Shown: positions 49,222-59,216 of the stretch, piece by piece
How the letters are laid out: each line of letters opens with the position of its first letter
Numbering within the stretch: position 1 is the first letter of the stretch
Source: an uncultured Lutimaribacter sp.
GTDB lineage: Bacteria; Pseudomonadota; Alphaproteobacteria; Rhodobacterales; Rhodobacteraceae
Reading direction: 5' to 3'
NCBI GenBank assembly: GCA_913061505.1
Contig: CAJXSO010000001.1
Location: forward strand, 62,001-126,000
Length of the DNA: 64,000 nt
Notes under the pieces: generated by a model
Seen by the model: the letters and a program-made list of their open reading frames with translations, nothing else
Told to the model about the DNA's origin: nothing
Database searches by the model: none
Position numbers and translations under genes: made by a program

Positions 49222-50700
49222 ATGGCGATACCTGTTGAAACCTTTTTTCTAGATCCGCACGCGCAAGCCACCTTGCAGGCGCGCATTCAGCAGATGATTG
49301 CCCAAGGCATTTTATCGGGCCGCTTTCGCCCGGGCGAAAAGCTGCCATCGTCGCGAAAACTGGCCACACATTTGGGCGTCAGCCGCATCACCGTAACCTT
49401 GGCCTATACCGAATTGGTGGCCTCGGATTATCTGACAGCGCAGGGGCGCTCGGGGTATTTCGTGTCGGAAAATGCGCCCGAACCCATGCCAAAGCCCAGC
49501 GCGCCCCCCGCCCAAGACCGGGTGGATTGGGCCCGTGCTATCGGCCAGCGCTTTACCGGCGGGGTAGCGCCCGAAAAGCCCCAAGACTGGGCGCGCTATC
49601 GCTATCCTTTCATCTATGGGCAGGCAGACCCAACATTGTTTGATCATGCCAATTGGCGGCTATGCGCGCTGCAGGCGCTGGGGCAAAAAGATTTCGCAGC
49701 CCTGACCACCGATTACTACGATCAAGACGATCCGCAATTGGTGGAATTCATCGCGCGCCACACCCTGCCCCGGCGTGGGATTGTGGCCGATACCTCGCAA
49801 ATACTGGTCACATTGGGCGCGCAAAACGCGCTGTGGCTGGCGGCCCAAGTGCTGCTGACCCAGCGCCGCACCGCCGCCGTAGAAGACCCGTGCTACCCCG
49901 CCCTGCGCGATATTTTAACCCAATCGCGCTGCCATTTGCGCCCCATATCGGTAGATGCCCACGGCCTGCCCCCCGACGCGCTGGGCGATGCGGTGGATGT
50001 AATCTTTACCACCCCGTCGCACCAATGCCCCAGCTCGGCCACCATGCCACTGGCGCGCCGCCATGCCTTGCTGGACCGCGCCCGCCAGTTGGATGCGCTG
50101 ATTGTCGAGGATGATTACGAATTCGAAATGTCGTTTCTGCAATCGCCGTCCCCGGCGCTGAAATCGCTCGATCAGGATGGGCGCGTGATCTATGTGGGCA
50201 GCTTTTCCAAATCGCTGTTTCCAGGGTTGCGGCTGGGCTATCTGGTGGGCTCGGCCCCGTTTATCCGCGAGGCGCGCGCCCTGCGCGCCAGCGTTTTGCG
50301 CCACCCGCCGGGCCATATCCAGCGCACCGCCGCCTATTTCCTGTCGCTGGGCCATTACGATGCGTTGATCCGCAAAACCGGGCGTGTTTATGCCCAACGC
50401 CGGCAGGTGATGGAAAGCGCGATCCATCAATATGGCCTGGAAATTGCCGGCAGCGGCGCGCATGGCGGCTCGTCTTTTTGGATGCGCGCGCCCGATGGGG
50501 TGGATACTGGCCAATTGGCCCAAGATCTGCGCGCCAAAGGGGTGCTGATCGAACCGGGCAGTTCGTTTTTTCATGGCGAGGCCCCGCCGCAAAATTTCTA
50601 CCGCCTTGCCTATTCCTCGATTCCTGCCGAACGCATCCCCGAGGGCATCGCCCGTATCGCAGGCGCCCTGGGCCAAACTGGCCATAAGGCAGATCGGTAA
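49222..50700 (+). CDS. tauR: MocR/GntR-type taurine regulator
   Basis: 492 residues: an N-terminal GntR winged helix (approx. 12-80, GILSGRFRPGEKLPSSRKLA, then VSRITVTLAYTELVASDYL) joined to an aminotransferase-like PLP domain (from about 130). VEDDYEFEM carries the PLP-ring Asp equivalent and YVGSFSKSLFPGLRLGYLV the PLP-binding Lys. MocR proteins use this domain as a sensor. Position between tpa and xsc matches TauR, the taurine-responsive activator of alphaproteobacteria. The DNA boxes described here are its likely targets. Confidence 0.9.
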   Translation: MAIPVETFFLDPHAQATLQARIQQMIAQGILSGRFRPGEKLPSSRKLATHLGVSRITVTLAYTELVASDYLTAQGRSGYFVSENAPEPMPKPSAPPAQDRVDWARAIGQRFTGGVAPEKPQDWARYRYPFIYGQADPTLFDHANWRLCALQALGQKDFAALTTDYYDQDDPQLVEFIARHTLPRRGIVADTSQILVTLGAQNALWLAAQVLLTQRRTAAVEDPCYPALRDILTQSRCHLRPISVDAHGLPPDALGDAVDVIFTTPSHQCPSSATMPLARRHALLDRARQLDALIVEDDYEFEMSFLQSPSPALKSLDQDGRVIYVGSFSKSLFPGLRLGYLVGSAPFIREARALRASVLRHPPGHIQRTAAYFLSLGHYDALIRKTGRVYAQRRQVMESAIHQYGLEIAGSGAHGGSSFWMRAPDGVDTGQLAQDLRAKGVLIEPGSSFFHGEAPPQNFYRLAYSSIPAERIPEGIARIAGALGQTGHKADR

Positions 50701-50710
50701 CTGGCCCTAT
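50678..50710 (+). promoter_or_regulatory. Candidate TauR boxes upstream of xsc
   Basis: CTGGCCATAA (50678-50687) and CTGGCCCTAT (50701-50710) are direct repeats with a 23-base spacing, ending 93 bases before the xsc ATG. The downstream box extends to an exact 11-base match, CTGGCCCTATT, with the tpa box at 47607-47617. The upstream box lies inside the tauR coding end. Confidence 0.65.
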
Positions 50711-50803
50711 TACCATTCCCCCCACCCTTTAGGTTGGCATCAGCAAAACATCAGGGGCTTTGGCGCCCCGAATCCCCATGCCCGAATGACGGAGACACCC
50801 AGC

Positions 50804-52579
50804 ATGAAAATGACAACCGAAGAAGCCTTTGTAAAAGTCTTGCAGATGCATGGCATTGAACATGCCTTTGGCATCATCGGCTCGGCTTTCATGCCGATTT
50901 CCGATCTATTCCCGCAGGCAGGCATCAGCTTTTGGGATTGTGCGCACGAAGGCTCGGGCGGGATGATGGCCGATGGCTATACCCGTGCCAGCGGCAAGAT
51001 GAGCATGATGATCGCACAAAACGGCCCCGGCATTACCAATTTCGTGACAGCCGTGAAAACCGCCTATTGGAACCACACGCCGCTGCTGCTGGTCACACCG
51101 CAGGCCGCCAATAAAACCATCGGCCAGGGCGGGTTCCAAGAGGTGGAACAAATGGCGCTGTTCAAGGATATGGTCGCCTATCAAGAAGAGGTGCGCGACC
51201 CCTCGCGCATCGCCGAGGTGCTGAACCGCGTCATCATCAACGCACGCCGCGCCAGCGCGCCGGCACAAATCAACGTGCCGCGCGATTACTGGACGCAGGT
51301 GATCGATATCGAGCTGCCCCGCATCGTGGAATTCGAGCGCCCCAATGGCGGCGAAGAGGCCCTGACAGCCGCGGCCGAATTGCTGGGCCAGGCCAAATTC
51401 CCGGTCATTTTGAACGGTGCAGGTGTGGTGCTGGCGGGCGCCATTCCCGCCTCGATGGCCCTGGCCGAGCGGCTGGATGCCCCTGTGTGCGTGGGCTATC
51501 AGCACAACGATGCCTTCCCCGGCTCGCACCCGCTGTTTGCCGGGCCTTTGGGCTATAACGGCTCGAAAGCCGGAATGGAGCTGATTTCCAAAGCCGATGT
51601 TGTGCTGTGCCTTGGCACCCGCCTGAACCCGTTTTCCACCCTGCCGGGCTATGGCATCGATTATTGGCCCAAGGATGCGCAGATCATTCAGGTGGATATC
51701 AACCCAGATCGCATTGGCCTGACCAAAAAAGTATCGGTCGGTATCGTGGGCGATGCGCGCAAAGTGGCCGAAACGCTGCTGGCCCGCCTGCCCGACACCG
51801 CGGGCGACGCTGGCCGCGAGGAACGCCGCGCGCTGATTGGTCAAACCAAATCGGCCTGGGCGCAGCAGCTGTCCAGCATGGATCACGAAGATGATGATCC
51901 GGGCACCACATGGAACCAGCGCGCACGCGCCGACAAACCCGATTGGATGAGCCCCCGCATGGCATGGCGCGCCATTCAAAGCGCGCTGCCGAAAGAGGCG
52001 ATTATTTCCTCGGATATTGGCAATAACTGCGCCATCGGCAACGCCTACCCAACCTTTGAGGCGGGCCGCAAATATCTGGCACCGGGCCTGTTTGGGCCCT
52101 GCGGCTATGGCCTGCCGGCGATTGTTGGCGCCAAAATCGGCTGCCCCGATGTGCCAGTTGTGGGCTTTGCGGGCGATGGTGCCTTTGGCATCGCGGTGAC
52201 CGAACTGACCGCCATTGGCCGCTCGGAATGGCCGCCCATCACCATGGTTGTGTTCCGCAACTATCAATGGGGCGCGGAAAAGCGCAACTCGACCCTGTGG
52301 TATGACGACAATTTTGTGGGCACCGAGCTGGACACGCAAGTGTCTTATGCCGGCATTGCACAGGCCTGTGGCCTGCAAGGCGTTGTGGCCCGCACCATGG
52401 ATGAGCTGAAAGACGCGCTGAACCAAGCCATCAAAGATCAGATGGAAAACGGCAAAACCACGCTGATCGAGGCGCTGATCAACCAAGAGCTGGGCGAGCC
52501 GTTCCGCCGCGACGCGATGAAAAAGCCCGTGGCTGTTGCCGGTATCGACCGCGCCGACATGCGCCCGCAATCGGCCTAA
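50804..52579 (+). CDS. xsc: Sulfoacetaldehyde acetyltransferase
   Basis: 591 residues, ThDP-dependent enzyme of the acetolactate-synthase superfamily. The N-terminal Pyr domain has IIGSAFMPISDLFPQAG and CAHEGSGGMMADGYTRA (catalytic Glu); the C-terminal PP domain has GFAGDGAFGIAVTEL and VFRNYQWGAEKRN, the ThDP/Mg motif. Length and the HEGSGG block match Xsc rather than acetolactate synthase. It converts sulfoacetaldehyde and phosphate to acetyl phosphate and sulfite. ATG 50804 with GGAGAC upstream is chosen; the much longer reading overlaps tauR. A 7-base hairpin without T-run (52580-52602) is all that separates it from convergent pta. Confidence 0.94.
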   Translation: MKMTTEEAFVKVLQMHGIEHAFGIIGSAFMPISDLFPQAGISFWDCAHEGSGGMMADGYTRASGKMSMMIAQNGPGITNFVTAVKTAYWNHTPLLLVTPQAANKTIGQGGFQEVEQMALFKDMVAYQEEVRDPSRIAEVLNRVIINARRASAPAQINVPRDYWTQVIDIELPRIVEFERPNGGEEALTAAAELLGQAKFPVILNGAGVVLAGAIPASMALAERLDAPVCVGYQHNDAFPGSHPLFAGPLGYNGSKAGMELISKADVVLCLGTRLNPFSTLPGYGIDYWPKDAQIIQVDINPDRIGLTKKVSVGIVGDARKVAETLLARLPDTAGDAGREERRALIGQTKSAWAQQLSSMDHEDDDPGTTWNQRARADKPDWMSPRMAWRAIQSALPKEAIISSDIGNNCAIGNAYPTFEAGRKYLAPGLFGPCGYGLPAIVGAKIGCPDVPVVGFAGDGAFGIAVTELTAIGRSEWPPITMVVFRNYQWGAEKRNSTLWYDDNFVGTELDTQVSYAGIAQACGLQGVVARTMDELKDALNQAIKDQMENGKTTLIEALINQELGEPFRRDAMKKPVAVAGIDRADMRPQSA

Positions 52580-52615
52580 TCCGCGGGGGGCTGGGCCGCG
52601 GATGCAGCCCGGCCC

Positions 52616-53476
52616 TTAGCCCCGCGCCAGGGCCAGTGTCACCACGGTTGCGGCCACAATATCGGCCGCCGTGGCGCCGCGGCTTAGGTCGCATACCGGG
52701 CGGCGAAAGCCCTGCAAAATAGGGCCCAGCGCCTGTGCCCCTGCCAGCTCTTGGGCCAGCTTGTATGAAATATTGCCTGCATCCAGGTTAGGAAAGACCA
52801 AAACATTGGCTTGCCCATCGCCCAACCCCTTTTTGGCCGCCACCCGCGCATTCAGCGCGGCATCGGCCTGTATGGGCCCGGCAAAGCCTGTGGCCTGGGC
52901 GGCCTCGCGCACCTTTTCCACGCTGCTGCCCGCCCCGCTGCTGCCTGTGGAATACGACAGCAAGGCCACATCGGCCCGCCCCAACAGGGCCTGCCCCGTG
53001 GCCGCAGAGGCCCGCGCGATATCGGCCAGCTCGGCGGCGGTTGGATCCACGTTCAGCGCGCAATCGGCGAAAACCATCTGCCGCCCGTCGGGAAAGACCA
53101 TCAGGAAAAACGAGCTGGGGGTGGTCACATCTTCGGCCAGGCCAATGGCGATCGAGGCCGCCTCGATCACCTTTTTCGTCGGGGCATCGGCGCCTGCCAC
53201 CATGGCATCGGCCTCGCCCACAGCCACCATCGCCGCCGCCAAATACAACGGGCGCGCCAACATGCGTGCGGCAACCCCCTCTTTCAGGCCGCGCGCCGCA
53301 ACCAGGGCCGCCACATGGGCCGCGCTGGGCGCCTCGGGCAGGCGCAGGGGCTGGCACAGCCCTTGCTTGGCCAATTCGGCCATGGCCTCGGCCACGCGCG
53401 GCTCGTCTGCTTCGGGAAAGACAACGCGGGCGGGGTTGGCCCGTGCCGCGTTAAAAAAATTTTGCAATGCCAACAT
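52616..53476 (-). CDS. pta: Phosphate acetyltransferase, short form
   Basis: 286 residues. ARVVFPEADEPRVAEAM begins the PTA_PTB domain; ADAMVAGADAPTKKVIEAAS, SSFFLMVFPDGRQMVFADCA and ANVLVFPNLDAGNISYKLAQ are canonical blocks. About 35-40 residues normally present in the N-terminal half are absent, against a usual 320-340. Start ATG 53476 has a GGAGG upstream; extending to 53788 would run through the citrate synthase gene. It converts acetyl phosphate from Xsc to acetyl-CoA. It is the only minus-strand gene among plus-strand taurine and sulfite genes, with 33 bases to the divergent citrate synthase start. Confidence 0.88.
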   Translation of the reverse strand: MLALQNFFNAARANPARVVFPEADEPRVAEAMAELAKQGLCQPLRLPEAPSAAHVAALVAARGLKEGVAARMLARPLYLAAAMVAVGEADAMVAGADAPTKKVIEAASIAIGLAEDVTTPSSFFLMVFPDGRQMVFADCALNVDPTAAELADIARASAATGQALLGRADVALLSYSTGSSGAGSSVEKVREAAQATGFAGPIQADAALNARVAAKKGLGDGQANVLVFPNLDAGNISYKLAQELAGAQALGPILQGFRRPVCDLSRGATAADIVAATVVTLALARG

Positions 53477-53509
53477 GTATGCCTCCGTATGCAGTGAAAG
53501 GAGCCAGCT

Positions 53510-54643
53510 ATGACCGACGACGTCAAGATCAACCGTGGCCTGATAGGCGTGTATTTCGACCGATCCAGCGTAAGCCTGATTGATGGCGCGAAAGGCGAGC
53601 TTAGCTACCGTGGCTATTCCATCCATGATCTGGCCACCCATGCCAGCTTTGAAGAGGTGTCTTACCTGCTGATCCATGGCGAATTGCCCACTCCCGCCCA
53701 GCTGCAGGAATTTGACGCAGCCCTGAAAGCGGCCCGTCAGCTGCCAGATCAGATCTACGATATCATTCGCGCCTGCCAAGCGGGCCACCCGATGGATGTG
53801 CTGCGCACCGCCGTGTCTGCACTGGCCGCGCTAGAACCCGACAGCCAAACCGCCACCGCCGAGGGGTTTGTGCGCAACGGCATCCGCCTGACCAGCCAGG
53901 TGCCGATGATCATTGCCGCCCACGAGGCCATGCGCAACAACCGCACGCCCGTGGCCGCAGACCCCGCATTAAGCCATGCCGCCAATTGGCTGTGGATGCT
54001 GAAAGGCGAAAAACCCAGCGAAGATGCGGCGCGGCTGGCTGATGTTGATTTCATTTTGCACGCCGAACATGGATCAAACGCCTCTAGCTTTGCCGCGCGG
54101 GTTACGGTGGGCACGCAAACCAACCTGCATGGTGCCATCGTCACAGCTCTGTCTACGCTGGCCGGCCCCGCCCATGGTGGCGCGGCCGAAGATGTGATGA
54201 AAATGGTGCATGAAATCGGCACGCCGGACAATGCCGCCGCTTATGTCAAGGCCAAGCGCGCCGCGCGCGAACCTGTCACAGGGTTTGGCCACCGGGTGTA
54301 TCGCGCCGAAGATCCGCGCGCGCGCCACATGCGCGAAGGTGTGCGCCGCTTGGGCCAGGAAATGGGCGCGCCGGAATGGTATGAAATTCTGCAAGCCGTG
54401 GTCGAGGCCATGCAGCCCTATGCCCGCCACGGGCTGAACGTGAATGTCGATTTCTATTCCGGTGTGATCTACCAGCTGCATGGCATTCCCATGGATCTTT
54501 ATGTGCCCATCTTTGCCATCGGGCGCATGCCTGGCTGGGTGGTGCAATGCATGGAACAGCAGCAGTCAAATATCTTGCTGCGCCCGCTGACCGCCTACAA
54601 CGGCCCCGATGCGCGGCCTTGGGTTCCGCTGCAGGCGCGCTAA
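53510..54643 (+). CDS. Citrate synthase-family enzyme (citrate or 2-methylcitrate synthase type)
   Basis: 377 residues, shorter than the hexameric GltA type and close to the dimeric citrate/methylcitrate synthase type. Catalytic residues are present: His222 in AGPAHGGAAE, His261 in GFGHRVY and Asp314 in NVDFYSG; HAEHGSNAS (184-192) is also conserved. Start ATG 53510 has AAAGGAG 6 bases upstream. Between pta and soeA, it could condense taurine-derived acetyl-CoA with oxaloacetate. Whether it is the main citrate synthase, a paralogue or a methylcitrate synthase cannot be decided from this window. Confidence 0.82.
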   Translation: MTDDVKINRGLIGVYFDRSSVSLIDGAKGELSYRGYSIHDLATHASFEEVSYLLIHGELPTPAQLQEFDAALKAARQLPDQIYDIIRACQAGHPMDVLRTAVSALAALEPDSQTATAEGFVRNGIRLTSQVPMIIAAHEAMRNNRTPVAADPALSHAANWLWMLKGEKPSEDAARLADVDFILHAEHGSNASSFAARVTVGTQTNLHGAIVTALSTLAGPAHGGAAEDVMKMVHEIGTPDNAAAYVKAKRAAREPVTGFGHRVYRAEDPRARHMREGVRRLGQEMGAPEWYEILQAVVEAMQPYARHGLNVNVDFYSGVIYQLHGIPMDLYVPIFAIGRMPGWVVQCMEQQQSNILLRPLTAYNGPDARPWVPLQAR

Positions 54644-54706
54644 TTTGCCCACCACCGCTTGCCCCACAGCACAAGAGCGGCCACCATGCCGCCAGGGAGA
54701 GACAGG

Positions 54707-57517
54707 ATGAACCAGCCAAAGATAGATACCTCGCCCAAGGTTTCCGACGAGGTGCGCAAAACCACCTGCTATATGTGTGCCTGCCGCTGTGGAATTAACG
54801 TGCATATGAAAGCGGGCAAAATTGCCTATATCGAGGGCAACCGCGACCACCCCGTGAACAAGGGGGTTTTATGCGCCAAGGGCTCGGCCGGTATTATGCA
54901 GGTCAATGCCCCCTCGCGGCTGCGCGCACCGCTCAAGCGGGTGGGCCCAAGGGGCGCGGGCCAATTCGAGGAAATCAGCTGGGACGAGGCGCTGCAGATC
55001 GCCACATCTTGGCTGGCGCCGCTGCGCGAAACCGCCCCGGAAAAGCTGGCGTTTTTCACCGGGCGCGACCAGTCGCAATCGTTCACCGGCTGGTGGGCGC
55101 AGCAGTTTGGCACCCCGAATTTTGCCGCACATGGCGGGTTTTGTTCGGTCAATATGGCGGCTGCGGGCATTTATACCATGGGCGGTGCCTTTTGGGAATT
55201 TGGCCAGCCCGATTGGGACCACAGCAAATTGTTCGTGATTTTCGGCGTGGCCGAAGACCACGACAGCAACCCCATCAAAATGGGTATTGGCAAGCTAAAG
55301 GCGCGCGGTGCGCGGGTGGTGGGGGTGAACCCCATTCGCACCGGCTATAACGCGGTGGCCGATGATTGGTATGGTATCACCCCGGGCACCGATGGGCTGT
55401 TGATTTTGTCGCTGGTGCATCTGCTGCTGAAAGCAGGCCGTGTGGATCTCGATTATTTGGCCCGCTGGACCAACGCACCGGTGCTGGTGAATTGCACCGC
55501 CGGACATGCCGATTACGGCATGCTGCTGCGCGATAGCGAGGGCCGCGAAATGGTGATCGATCGCACCACCGGCCAGCCTGCCCCCTTTACCCAAAAGGGC
55601 CTGCGCCCCGATCTGGCTGCAAGCCACCAGCAAGATGGCATCACCTATCGGCCCGTGTTCCACCTGATGGCCGAGCGCTATCTCGATGACAGCTACGCCC
55701 CCGAGGCCGTGGCCGAGAAAACCGGCATCTCTGCCAGCCGCATCCGCGCATTGGCCGCCGAAATTGCCCGCGTGGCCTTTGACGAGGCGATCACGCTGGA
55801 CCAGCCATGGACGGATTTCCGCGGGGAAACCCATGCCAAAATGGTGGGGCGCCCTGTCAGTTTCCACGCCATGCGCGGTATCTCGGCCCATTCCAACGGG
55901 TTTCAGACCGCACGCGCGCTGCATATGCTGCAAATCTTGCTGGGCACGGTGGAAACACCCGGCGGTTTTCGCTTTAAACCGCCCTACCCAAAGCCCGCCA
56001 CAGCCCACCCAAAACCCCATTGCGGCGTTACCCCCGGGGCGCCGCTGGATGGCCCGCATCTGGGCTATGTGCAGGGCCCCGAAGACCTGTGCCTGCGCCC
56101 CGATGGCAGCCCAGCGCGGATCGACAAGGCCTATACTTGGGAAAACCCGATGTCGGCCCATGGGCTGATGCATATGGTCATTTCCAACGCACATGCGGGC
56201 GATCCCTATAAAATCGACACGCTGTTTATGTATATGGCCAATATGTCGTGGAACTCGTCGATGAACAGCGGTGGCGTGATGCAAATGCTGACCGACACCG
56301 ACGAAAACGGCGATTATGTGATCCCGCGCATCATCTATTCCGATGCCTATTCTTCGGAAATGGTGGCCTATGCAGACCTGATTTTGCCCGATACCACCTA
56401 TCTGGAACGCCACGATTGCATCAGCCTGCTCGACCGCCCGATTTGCGAGGCCGACGCCGCCGCCGATGCCATTCGCTGGCCCGTGGTCACGCCCGACCGC
56501 GATGTGCGCGGCTTTCAATCGGTGTTGCTGGATCTGGGGCACCGCCTGGGCCTGCCGGGCATGGTGGCCCCCGATGGCAGCCCCGCCTATCGCGATTACG
56601 CCGATTACATCGTCAATCACCAGCGCAAGCCCGGCATCGGCCCCCTGGCCGGATGGCGCACAGGCGGCGATGGGCGCGGCGCGCCAAACCCGGATCAGCT
56701 GCAAAACTACATCGACAATGGCGGCTTTTGGCTGGCCCATGTGCCGGCCGAGGCCAGCTATTTCAAACCCTGGAACGCAGATTACCAAAACTGGGCCGTG
56801 GGCATGGGCTTTTACGACAGCCCCCAGCCCTATCTGTTTCAGCTCTATGTCGAACCGCTGCGCAAATTCCAACGCGCAGCCGAAGGGCACGGGCCGCATC
56901 AACCGCCCGATCACCTGCGCCAGCGCATCGCCGAAACGCTAGATCCGCTGCCCATCTGGTACCCTCCCTTTAGCGATGCGCAGGTCGATACCGATGCCTT
57001 CCCCATCCACGCGCTCACCCAGCGCCCGATGGCGATGTATCACAGCTGGGGCAGCCAAAATGCCTGGCTGCGCCAGATCCACGGGATGAACCCGCTTTAT
57101 CTGCCCACCAACCTGTGGCAAAGCCACGGCTTTGGCGCGGGCGATTGGGCGCGTGTCACCTCGCCCCATGGCGAAATTACCGTGCCCGTGGCCCATATGG
57201 GCGCGCTGAACCCCAATACGATCTGGACATGGAACGCCATTGGCAAACGCCGGGGCGCATGGGCATTGGATGAAAAAGCCCCCGAAGCCACGCAGGGTTT
57301 TTTGCTAAACCACCTGATCCACGAATTGTTGCCCCCCAAAGGCGATGGCCTGCGCTGGGCCAATTCCGACCCGGTCACAGGCCAGGCCGCCTGGTTTGAC
57401 CTGCGCGTGCAGATCGAAAAAACCACGCCGCCCGCCCACAGCCTGCCCGCGCACCCCACCCAAGGCGCGCCGGTGCCGCAGGGCCCGCGTGATGTGGCCT
57501 GGAAGGTGGGCCAATGA
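54707..57517 (+). CDS. soeA: Sulfite dehydrogenase (quinone), molybdopterin catalytic subunit
   Basis: 936 residues of the DMSO-reductase superfamily. The N-terminal [4Fe-4S] motif is Cys21, Cys24, Cys28, Cys56, and GGFCSVN suggests Cys146 as molybdenum ligand. There is no twin-arginine signal, so it should work in the cytoplasm, as SoeA does and most relatives (PsrA, DmsA) do not. The order A-B-C beside xsc and pta supports oxidation of the sulfite released by Xsc. ATG 54707 follows AGGGAGAGACAGG. It starts 63 bases after the citrate synthase stop. Confidence 0.88.
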   Translation: MNQPKIDTSPKVSDEVRKTTCYMCACRCGINVHMKAGKIAYIEGNRDHPVNKGVLCAKGSAGIMQVNAPSRLRAPLKRVGPRGAGQFEEISWDEALQIATSWLAPLRETAPEKLAFFTGRDQSQSFTGWWAQQFGTPNFAAHGGFCSVNMAAAGIYTMGGAFWEFGQPDWDHSKLFVIFGVAEDHDSNPIKMGIGKLKARGARVVGVNPIRTGYNAVADDWYGITPGTDGLLILSLVHLLLKAGRVDLDYLARWTNAPVLVNCTAGHADYGMLLRDSEGREMVIDRTTGQPAPFTQKGLRPDLAASHQQDGITYRPVFHLMAERYLDDSYAPEAVAEKTGISASRIRALAAEIARVAFDEAITLDQPWTDFRGETHAKMVGRPVSFHAMRGISAHSNGFQTARALHMLQILLGTVETPGGFRFKPPYPKPATAHPKPHCGVTPGAPLDGPHLGYVQGPEDLCLRPDGSPARIDKAYTWENPMSAHGLMHMVISNAHAGDPYKIDTLFMYMANMSWNSSMNSGGVMQMLTDTDENGDYVIPRIIYSDAYSSEMVAYADLILPDTTYLERHDCISLLDRPICEADAAADAIRWPVVTPDRDVRGFQSVLLDLGHRLGLPGMVAPDGSPAYRDYADYIVNHQRKPGIGPLAGWRTGGDGRGAPNPDQLQNYIDNGGFWLAHVPAEASYFKPWNADYQNWAVGMGFYDSPQPYLFQLYVEPLRKFQRAAEGHGPHQPPDHLRQRIAETLDPLPIWYPPFSDAQVDTDAFPIHALTQRPMAMYHSWGSQNAWLRQIHGMNPLYLPTNLWQSHGFGAGDWARVTSPHGEITVPVAHMGALNPNTIWTWNAIGKRRGAWALDEKAPEATQGFLLNHLIHELLPPKGDGLRWANSDPVTGQAAWFDLRVQIEKTTPPAHSLPAHPTQGAPVPQGPRDVAWKVGQ

Positions 57518-57578
57518 CCCACCGCCCAAGCCGCCGCCGCCACCCCCCGAAAACAGCCGCTTCGCAAAGGTGCCGCAC

Positions 57579-58343
57579 ATGACCCAGCTGCCCACCACCA
57601 CAACCCGCAAATTGGGCCTTGTCATCGATCTGGATACATGCGTGGGTTGCCATGCCTGCGTGATTTCCTGCAAAGGCTGGAACACCGAAAACTATGGCGC
57701 GCCCTTGGCCGATGAAGATGCCTATGGCGCCAACCCGGTGGGCAGTTTCTTGAACCGGGTGCACAGCTTCGAGGTGACACCCGCAGATGATGCCCCGCCC
57801 AGCTTGGTGCATTTTCCAAAATCCTGCCTGCATTGCGACAATGCCCCTTGCGTCACCGTCTGCCCCACTGGTGCCAGCTACAAGCGGGTGGAAGACGGCA
57901 TTGTGCTGGTGAATGAAAGCGCCTGTATCGGCTGCGGGCTATGCGCATGGGCCTGCCCCTATGGCGCGCGCGAATTAGACCCGCGCGAAAAGGTGATGAA
58001 AAAATGCACCCTGTGCGTAGACCGCATTTATAACGAAAACCTGCCCGAGGAAGACAGGGTGCCCGCCTGCGTGCGCACCTGCCCGGCGGGTGCGCGCCAT
58101 TTTGGCGATCTGGGCGACAGCGAAAGCGCCGTCAGCCAGCTGGTGGCCCAGCGCGGTGGCTTTGATCTGATGCCCGAGATGGGCACGCAGCCGGTGAACA
58201 AATACCTGCCCCCGCGCCCCAAAGACCAATTGCAAGAAACCGATATTCTGGCCCCGTTCCTGGCGCCTGTCACCGACACCAGCCAGGGCTTTTTGGGCTG
58301 GCTTGATCGCGCGCTTTCCGCCCTGCCCGGCGCCAAGGAGTAA
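57579..58343 (+). CDS. soeB: Sulfite dehydrogenase iron-sulfur subunit
   Basis: 254 residues with 16 cysteines arranged for four [4Fe-4S] clusters: Cys21/24/27/31, Cys83/86/91/95, Cys116/119/122/126 and Cys143/146/164/168. This DmsB/PsrB-like ferredoxin passes electrons from SoeA to the membrane anchor SoeC. ATG 57579 follows AAAGG. A long in-frame reading back to 57345 overlaps soeA in another frame and is rejected. It ends 3 bases before soeC. Confidence 0.9.
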   Translation: MTQLPTTTTRKLGLVIDLDTCVGCHACVISCKGWNTENYGAPLADEDAYGANPVGSFLNRVHSFEVTPADDAPPSLVHFPKSCLHCDNAPCVTVCPTGASYKRVEDGIVLVNESACIGCGLCAWACPYGARELDPREKVMKKCTLCVDRIYNENLPEEDRVPACVRTCPAGARHFGDLGDSESAVSQLVAQRGGFDLMPEMGTQPVNKYLPPRPKDQLQETDILAPFLAPVTDTSQGFLGWLDRALSALPGAKE

Positions 58344-58346
58344 GCC

Positions 58347-59216
58347 ATGCATCCCGCACCCTCGATTATTGTTTTTACCACGCTTTCGGGCCTTGGCTTT
58401 GGCTTGATGGCATTCTTGGGGCTGGGCCTGCCCGGCTCGACCGGCTGGGTGGCGCTGGCGTTTTACGTGATTGCCTATGCGCTGGCCTGCGGCGGGCTGG
58501 TTGCTTCGGCCTTTCATCTGGGCCACCCCGAACGGGCCTTGCGGGCCTTTAGCCAATGGCGCAGCAGCTGGCTGAGCCGCGAGGCGTGGCTGGCTGTGCT
58601 GACGCTGCTGGTGGTGGGCATTTTTGCTGCAGGCCGGGTGTTTTGGGGCCAGCTCTGGCAGCCCTTGGGCTGGCTGGGGGCGGCGCTGGCACTGGCCACT
58701 GTGTATAGCACCTCGATGATCTATGCCAGTTTGGCCGCCATTCCACGCTGGCATGGGCCCCTGACCCCGCTGCATTTTCTTAGCCTGTCTTTGGCAGGTG
58801 GCGCGCTGCTGGCGGGCCAGGTGGGCGCCGCCCTGCCGCTGCTGGCGCTGGCTGCGGGGGTGCAATTGGTGGTATGGATGCAGGGCGATGGCGCCTTGGC
58901 ACGGTCAGGTACAACCATGGCCAGCGCCACGGGGCTGCAGGGCGGGGCCGTGCGCGCCTTTGAGCCGCCCCATACCGGCACAAACTACCTGCTGCGCGAA
59001 ATGGTGCATATCGTCGGGCGCAAACACGCAGCCCGGCTGCGGGTTTTGACACTGATCTTGGGCTTTGGCCTGCCCATGGTGCTGCTGGTGCTGCCCTTTA
59101 ACCATTGGTTGGGGCTGCTGGCGGTGCTGACCCATGTGCTGGGTATTTTCGCCTCGCGCTGGTTGTTTTTTGCCCAAGCCGAGCATGTTGTGGGCCTGTA
59201 TTACGGCAAGCGCTAG
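58347..59216 (+). CDS. soeC: Sulfite dehydrogenase membrane anchor (DmsC-like)
   Basis: 289 residues with about eight hydrophobic segments. The N-terminus MHPAPSIIVFTTLSGLGFGL and ASAFHLGHPERALRAFSQWR with SSWLSREAW are hallmarks of the DmsC family that docks the iron-sulfur subunit and reduces or oxidises quinone. In SoeABC it delivers sulfite electrons to the quinone pool. It is the last gene of the cluster and is followed by a 13-base tandem repeat and the convergent DUF1523 gene, with no canonical terminator. Confidence 0.88.
   Translation: MHPAPSIIVFTTLSGLGFGLMAFLGLGLPGSTGWVALAFYVIAYALACGGLVASAFHLGHPERALRAFSQWRSSWLSREAWLAVLTLLVVGIFAAGRVFWGQLWQPLGWLGAALALATVYSTSMIYASLAAIPRWHGPLTPLHFLSLSLAGGALLAGQVGAALPLLALAAGVQLVVWMQGDGALARSGTTMASATGLQGGAVRAFEPPHTGTNYLLREMVHIVGRKHAARLRVLTLILGFGLPMVLLVLPFNHWLGLLAVLTHVLGIFASRWLFFAQAEHVVGLYYGKR

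Follow-up and report, generated by a model that had tools for sequence, protein, structure and literature searches.

Two genes that handle acetyl-CoA in taurine degradation, a short pta and a second citrate synthase gene (cs), stand head to head in a 64,000-nucleotide stretch of DNA from an uncultured Lutimaribacter sp. of the Rhodobacteraceae (hereafter the window), their start codons separated by a gap of 33 nucleotides (nt). This tight arrangement is not peculiar to the window genome, since it is found in dozens of related bacteria. It is real, conserved and modestly interesting, and most plausibly represents a compact control region shared by both genes: with a probability of about 0.62, as judged from gene order and sequence comparison, the junction would carry its own overlapping divergent promoters for the two genes. 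In the window, the junction would most likely be under tricarboxylic acid (TCA)-type control. The acetyl phosphate produced by Xsc is converted to acetyl-CoA by Pta, and acetyl-CoA enters the TCA cycle through citrate synthase. An earlier note on this DNA described xsc, cs and soeABC-like genes on the plus strand, with pta on the minus strand between xsc and cs, and the coordinates of the open reading frames agree with that layout (Table 1).

Conservation of the pta/cs junction

The same note placed a Shine-Dalgarno (SD) site for each gene within the 33 nt, and both are indeed found there: that of pta, seen as its complement CCTCC, at 53482-53486 and that of cs, AAGGAG, at 53498-53503. For the survey, 97 xsc loci and 62 loci around the short pta were collected, xsc being present in 93 of 149 genomes of the family. 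The short pta is present in 93 loci, the window included, and the neighbour at its start is cs in 72 of them, soeA in 10 and another gene or a contig end in 11. The 72 pta-cs pairs come from 72 different genomes, and 68 of them have a gap within 30-43 nt: 33 nt in 28 pairs, 36 in 19, 32 in 10 and 30 in three, with 31, 34, 35, 37, 38, 39, 41 and 43 nt once each (the gap of L116 can be read as 39 or 30 nt). The outliers are 20 (L170), 62, 63 and 168 nt, one each. Four pairs lack xsc in the sequence examined, two of them with just 3.2 and 4.2 kb of sequence on the xsc side, and their gaps are 36 (L169), 43 (L234), 38 (L261) and 32 nt (L262). Cultured relatives with the arrangement include Shimia marina and Marimonas lutisalis. 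The divergent pair tauA/tpa, taken for comparison, is spaced at 287-643 nt (n = 25). Gap length changes at least 29 times on a quick tree built from cs and pta, which has weak support at 24 of its 69 inner branches; thus, the narrow band is not merely a single ancestral length.

Multiples of three make up 53 of the 72 gap lengths. A coding reason for this was rejected, as open frames cross the gap in 51 (pta) and 55 (cs) of the 72 pairs; start-codon shifts, which alter the length by threes without insertions or deletions, may account for it. At one locus (L091), cs is gone and about the first 17 cs codons are retained beside pta, as judged by eye; this remnant is one isolated hint that pta needs that DNA. 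Literature searches, which covered the literature partially, turned up no description of the pta-cs pair.

A proposed control region for both genes

According to the proposed mechanism, transcription of pta and cs would start in or beside the gap, and the core promoter elements of each gene would extend into the first codons of the other. The footprint of RNA polymerase is larger than the 33-nt gap, so that, from geometry, binding at one promoter would preclude binding at the other. If the starts do not overlap and both SDs are kept in the messages, the sequence leaves about 7-11 nt for the starts in the window; otherwise, the 5' ends overlap. It had been argued that there is no room here for two promoters. 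This holds for two separate promoters side by side, and promoter elements should therefore enter the opposing coding sequences. It does not hold for the starts themselves: in five bidirectional promoters of E. coli described in the available part of PMC12825309, opposite starts lie 10-23 bp apart, and a short gap can thus hold both. The necessity of overlapping antisense transcripts, claimed in the earlier note, is for the same reason unsupported. The first 16 codons of cs show elevated synonymous constraint (1.17-1.19, against a mean of 0.99 and a standard deviation of 0.09), a weak effect that is not specific to this end of the gene. A leader switch, in which the SD of each gene would be hidden within its long leader by the complement of the other gene's SD, was rejected, the leaders behaving the same as shuffled ones: the mean unpaired probability of the SD is 0.46 versus 0.42 in shuffled leaders for cs and 0.31 versus 0.35 for pta (68 loci).

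The candidate for control in the window is a 16-bp element, GTATRC-N4-GTATRC, present there as GTATGCCTCCGTATGC. Exact copies occur in 13 of the 72 junctions, the window included, always in the same place, at the pta start codon and over its SD, and these are the only exact matches within the 1.13 Mb of the 72 loci. Two further junctions have the element with one or two mismatches, and it changes at least eight times on the tree. A regulator bound to it would block both genes; placement over the pta SD, ending 17 nt before the cs start, would suit blocking, not activation.

In several Rhodobacteraceae genomes, the element is also found ahead of genes of the TCA cycle (53477-53492; L196; L265-L291). 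The window genome has two more exact sites, one 60 nt before a monomeric isocitrate dehydrogenase gene and one close to a formate dehydrogenase-like gene. Across 18 further genomes, selected by hand, of which 12 have an exact or near-exact junction element and 6 have none, it yields 60 strand matches, which fall at 47 places and include 10 junctions among those places, versus 9 strand matches for a reversed control. Non-junction sites were inspected at 23 places, namely 21 of the 37 in these genomes and both of the window genome. By eye, 15 of the 23 precede icd, acnA, acnB or fumC and 8 do not; five representative neighbours were matched with hidden Markov models, in some cases as truncated frames that score below the cut-off. 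A single-mismatch site near the main gltA was rejected as support, since it falls within gltX, about 300 nt ahead of gltA. The 16-bp element is thus a candidate operator of a TCA-type regulator. AkgR or CceR, which reportedly govern the central carbon metabolism of Rhodobacter sphaeroides and so offer a parallel for regulation of TCA-type genes in this bacterial family, may be taken as presumptive candidates for the regulator. A literature search of partial coverage found no paper containing the word GTATAC.

Predicted TauR operators

Xsc would have its own TauR-type promoter region upstream, with pta converging on xsc from the other side. The TauR repeat has the consensus CTGGACYTAA and occurs as direct repeats before xsc and tpa (PMC5320631, from the part of the text available). 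We refined the consensus from xsc regions and scored as a pair two repeats 12-14 nt apart with at most 4 mismatches in 20. Of the 151 regions upstream of xsc, 125 contain such a pair, a count in which some genomes were entered more than once. The window has the pair CTGGCCATAA-N13-CTGGCCCTAT before xsc and one with 3 mismatches before tpa. At the same stringency, no pair was found at any of the 72 pta-cs junctions, where mismatches are spread as in shuffled junctions, or in the 88 regions upstream of soeA; a TauR site at the junction was therefore rejected at the stringency used. Hence xsc has a TauR-type promoter region that was not found for pta, cs or soeA, and any taurine induction of cs-soeABC, with no TauR pair at the junction and no T-run between xsc and pta, would have to come about by read-through or through a different regulator. 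The available portion of the TauR regulon text contains no mention of citrate synthase; it does assign bisC, hybA and dmsC to some regulons (PMC5320631), and these are here taken as of the soeABC type.

Weighing the alternatives

The odds that we attach to the various readings overlap partly and do not sum to one. The earlier note had the xsc transcript read through pta to feed cs and soeABC. In this noncontiguous operon, a TauR-driven xsc transcript would cross pta in antisense and the pta RNA would be its antisense partner. We hold this to be rather unlikely, and less likely than a compact shared control region. The 36-nt gap between xsc and pta does contain, as had been noted, a hairpin (TCCGCGG/CCGCGGA, 8 bp if one A-T pair is counted) and no T-run, which leaves a path for read-through from xsc. 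Across about 85 loci with an interval under 260 nt, a terminator-like site lies between the preceding gene and pta in 3. The order also fits, plus-strand xsc being upstream of minus-strand pta in 88 of the 93 loci, as does the distribution of TauR pairs, found before xsc and neither at the junctions nor before soeA, together with the soeABC-type genes of some published regulons (PMC5320631, as far as the available text goes). In L236 (genome G544), cs lies directly downstream of xsc and apart from pta, showing that joint expression with xsc can be favoured. Against this, the short gap is kept in the four pairs without xsc in the sequence examined, and the xsc-pta interval differs in length and content among loci, from overlapping stop codons (L170) to 2.9 kb containing other genes. 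The nearest recognised gene before pta in the 93 loci is ackA in 43, xsc in 35, a long pta in 9, tauR in 2, tauE in 1 and none in 3. Moreover, a hairpin followed by T5 lies on the plus strand inside the pta of the window, and the antisense RNA, untranslated over about 0.9 kb, would presumably be open to Rho. The feeding of cs-soeABC from xsc is thus unsupported, and read-through is not needed to account for the arrangement.

Promoters might instead lie deep inside the opposing genes and produce long overlapping 5' ends with excludon-like mutual control, a reading that partly overlaps that of a shared control region and that we find quite doubtful. The few nucleotides left for non-overlapping starts, the synonymous conservation at the start of cs and the cs codons retained in L091 would fit it. 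Three findings tell against it: constraint does not rise at the 5' end of pta, long leaders have no SD-masking effect, and in the loci with soeA in place of cs (7 of the 59 in the first set) the interval is 123-209 nt, as if promoters occupied ordinary space. Equally improbable is that the short gap arose by chance and was inherited, ordinary promoters being accommodated within coding sequence. In one genome alone, a gap this short is not remarkable: 30 of 189 other divergent pairs are at 40 nt or less, by a crude gene finder that produced false frames and recovered 21 of the 46 pta-cs pairs then known. Many of the loci are also related. This account is at odds with the repeated changes of gap length within a narrow band and with the wide tauA/tpa gaps. 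A more elaborate possibility is a metabolic toggle, in which the TCA-type operator and a shared RNA polymerase site would choose between Pta and citrate synthase, TauR read-through would add a taurine-dependent layer on cs-soeABC, and the geometry of about 33 nt would have been selected for exclusion; we consider it unlikely, too.

Several observations weigh against the compact shared control region. A sigma-70 consensus scan of positions 50500-55000 found no promoter (1.3 in shuffled sequence). Raised synonymous constraint is also seen at cs codons 309-324, and the start of pta shows no such rise (0.83-0.90). Start codons were picked near those of the window's proteins, which biases the survey towards similar gaps, and all counts are inflated by shared ancestry. 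The 16-bp element is missing, with at least 3 mismatches, from 57 of the 72 junctions and so cannot explain the conserved gap generally. The single-mismatch sites of the window genome include some before acnA, a fumarase gene (under the family cut-off), a NuoA-like frame (named by eye, with no family match) and the gene for the ATP synthase delta subunit, and as a set they are no more numerous (14+6) than those of the reversed control (15+7). As for the terminator-like hairpin inside pta, the scan gave 7 sites in total, within chance of the 5.0 in shuffles (standard deviation 2.5), and such sites lie inside pta in only 9 of the 93 loci.

Genes of the locus

Table 1. Genes and predicted signals around the pta/cs junction (window coordinates).
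Feature	Position	Strand	Basis
Predicted TauR operator pair before xsc	50678..50710	+	1 mismatch in 20
xsc, sulfoacetaldehyde acetyltransferase	50804..52579	+	TIGR03457, 939.6 bits, above the curated cut-off of 676.4
Convergent xsc-pta gap, 36 nt, hairpin without T-run	52580..52615
Short pta (286 amino acids)	52616..53476	-	PF01515, 252.6 bits; ATG begins at 53476
Terminator-like hairpin with T5, inside pta, antisense strand	53150..53168	+	Hairpin scan
Head-to-head gap, 33 nt, SD sites of both genes	53477..53509		pta and cs start codons
Predicted TCA-type operator, over the pta SD	53477..53492		Motif matching
Second citrate synthase (cs)	53510..54643	+	PF00285, 386.7 bits; TIGR01800, 417.9 bits, slightly below the cut-off of 421.3
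soeA-like molybdopterin oxidoreductase	54707..57517	+	PF00384, PF04879
soeB-like 4Fe-4S subunit	57579..58343	+	PF13247
soeC-like membrane anchor	58347..59216	+	PF04976 (DmsC)

The product of the short pta has about 30 residues fewer in its N-terminal part than the long Pta, keeps the DLSRGA...D motif and, in the alignment, has a Glu at the position of the conserved Arg in the TVRTAL of the long Pta. It falls below the cut-off of the equivalog TIGR00651 (230.7 versus 311.2 bits) and matches the broader PF01515. By its sequence, it would form a subfamily of its own, which may have a distinct property. A second pta, longer and 36-44% identical, lies behind xsc in the same direction in 9 of the 93 loci, with the short pta still on the other strand; the minus-strand pta is thus not merely the usual partner of xsc inverted. 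The short Pta looks like the sole stand-alone Pta of the window genome, the other PF01515 matches being two frames of 762 residues and one of 478. In actinobacterial-type contigs (L216-L218, L220 and L221), a Pta gene and tauB run in one direction, mostly with tauA and tpa and in some cases with xsc or soe-like genes, so that the taurine cluster is laid out differently there.

Another citrate synthase of the same genome is on contig 8. The trio downstream of cs has the architecture of a three-subunit molybdopterin enzyme, with sulfite oxidation as its putative role; its soe naming is our assumption from synteny. The nearest titled record for the locus is the Rhodobacteraceae metagenome-assembled genome WB4_7_009, with a pta 96% identical. 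A plasmid-borne copy was sought by searching PLSDB in 'distant' mode with the pta-cs DNA, which gave no match.

Significance and comparison with known systems

The pta/cs junction offers a naturally replicated test case, present in dozens of genomes, of how far two promoters can be compressed and of the reason for which selection maintains this. It suggests, too, that the flow of taurine carbon is tied to a TCA-cycle operator, not to the taurine regulator alone.

As regards the sources cited here, the comparisons hold for the parts of them that were available. In having one gene set against the surrounding gene run, the locus is like the noncontiguous operon menE-menC-MW1733-ytkD-MW1731 of S. 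aureus (PMC7154746); it differs in that pta and the divergent cs occur in four loci without xsc in the sequence examined. The direct repeats before xsc and tpa in the window are those of the described TauR regulons (PMC5320631), from which the locus departs in that its pta-cs junction and soeA have none of these sites at the stringency applied. The bidirectional promoters of E. coli (PMC12825309) share a -10 element, whereas the pta/cs junction gave no -10 consensus match; here, both SDs must also fit in the gap, and the conservation seen across genera concerns that gap, not the promoter elements. The pta/cs junction would be like these promoters in drawing opposite starts from very short DNA and in allowing only exclusive binding of the polymerase (PMC12825309).

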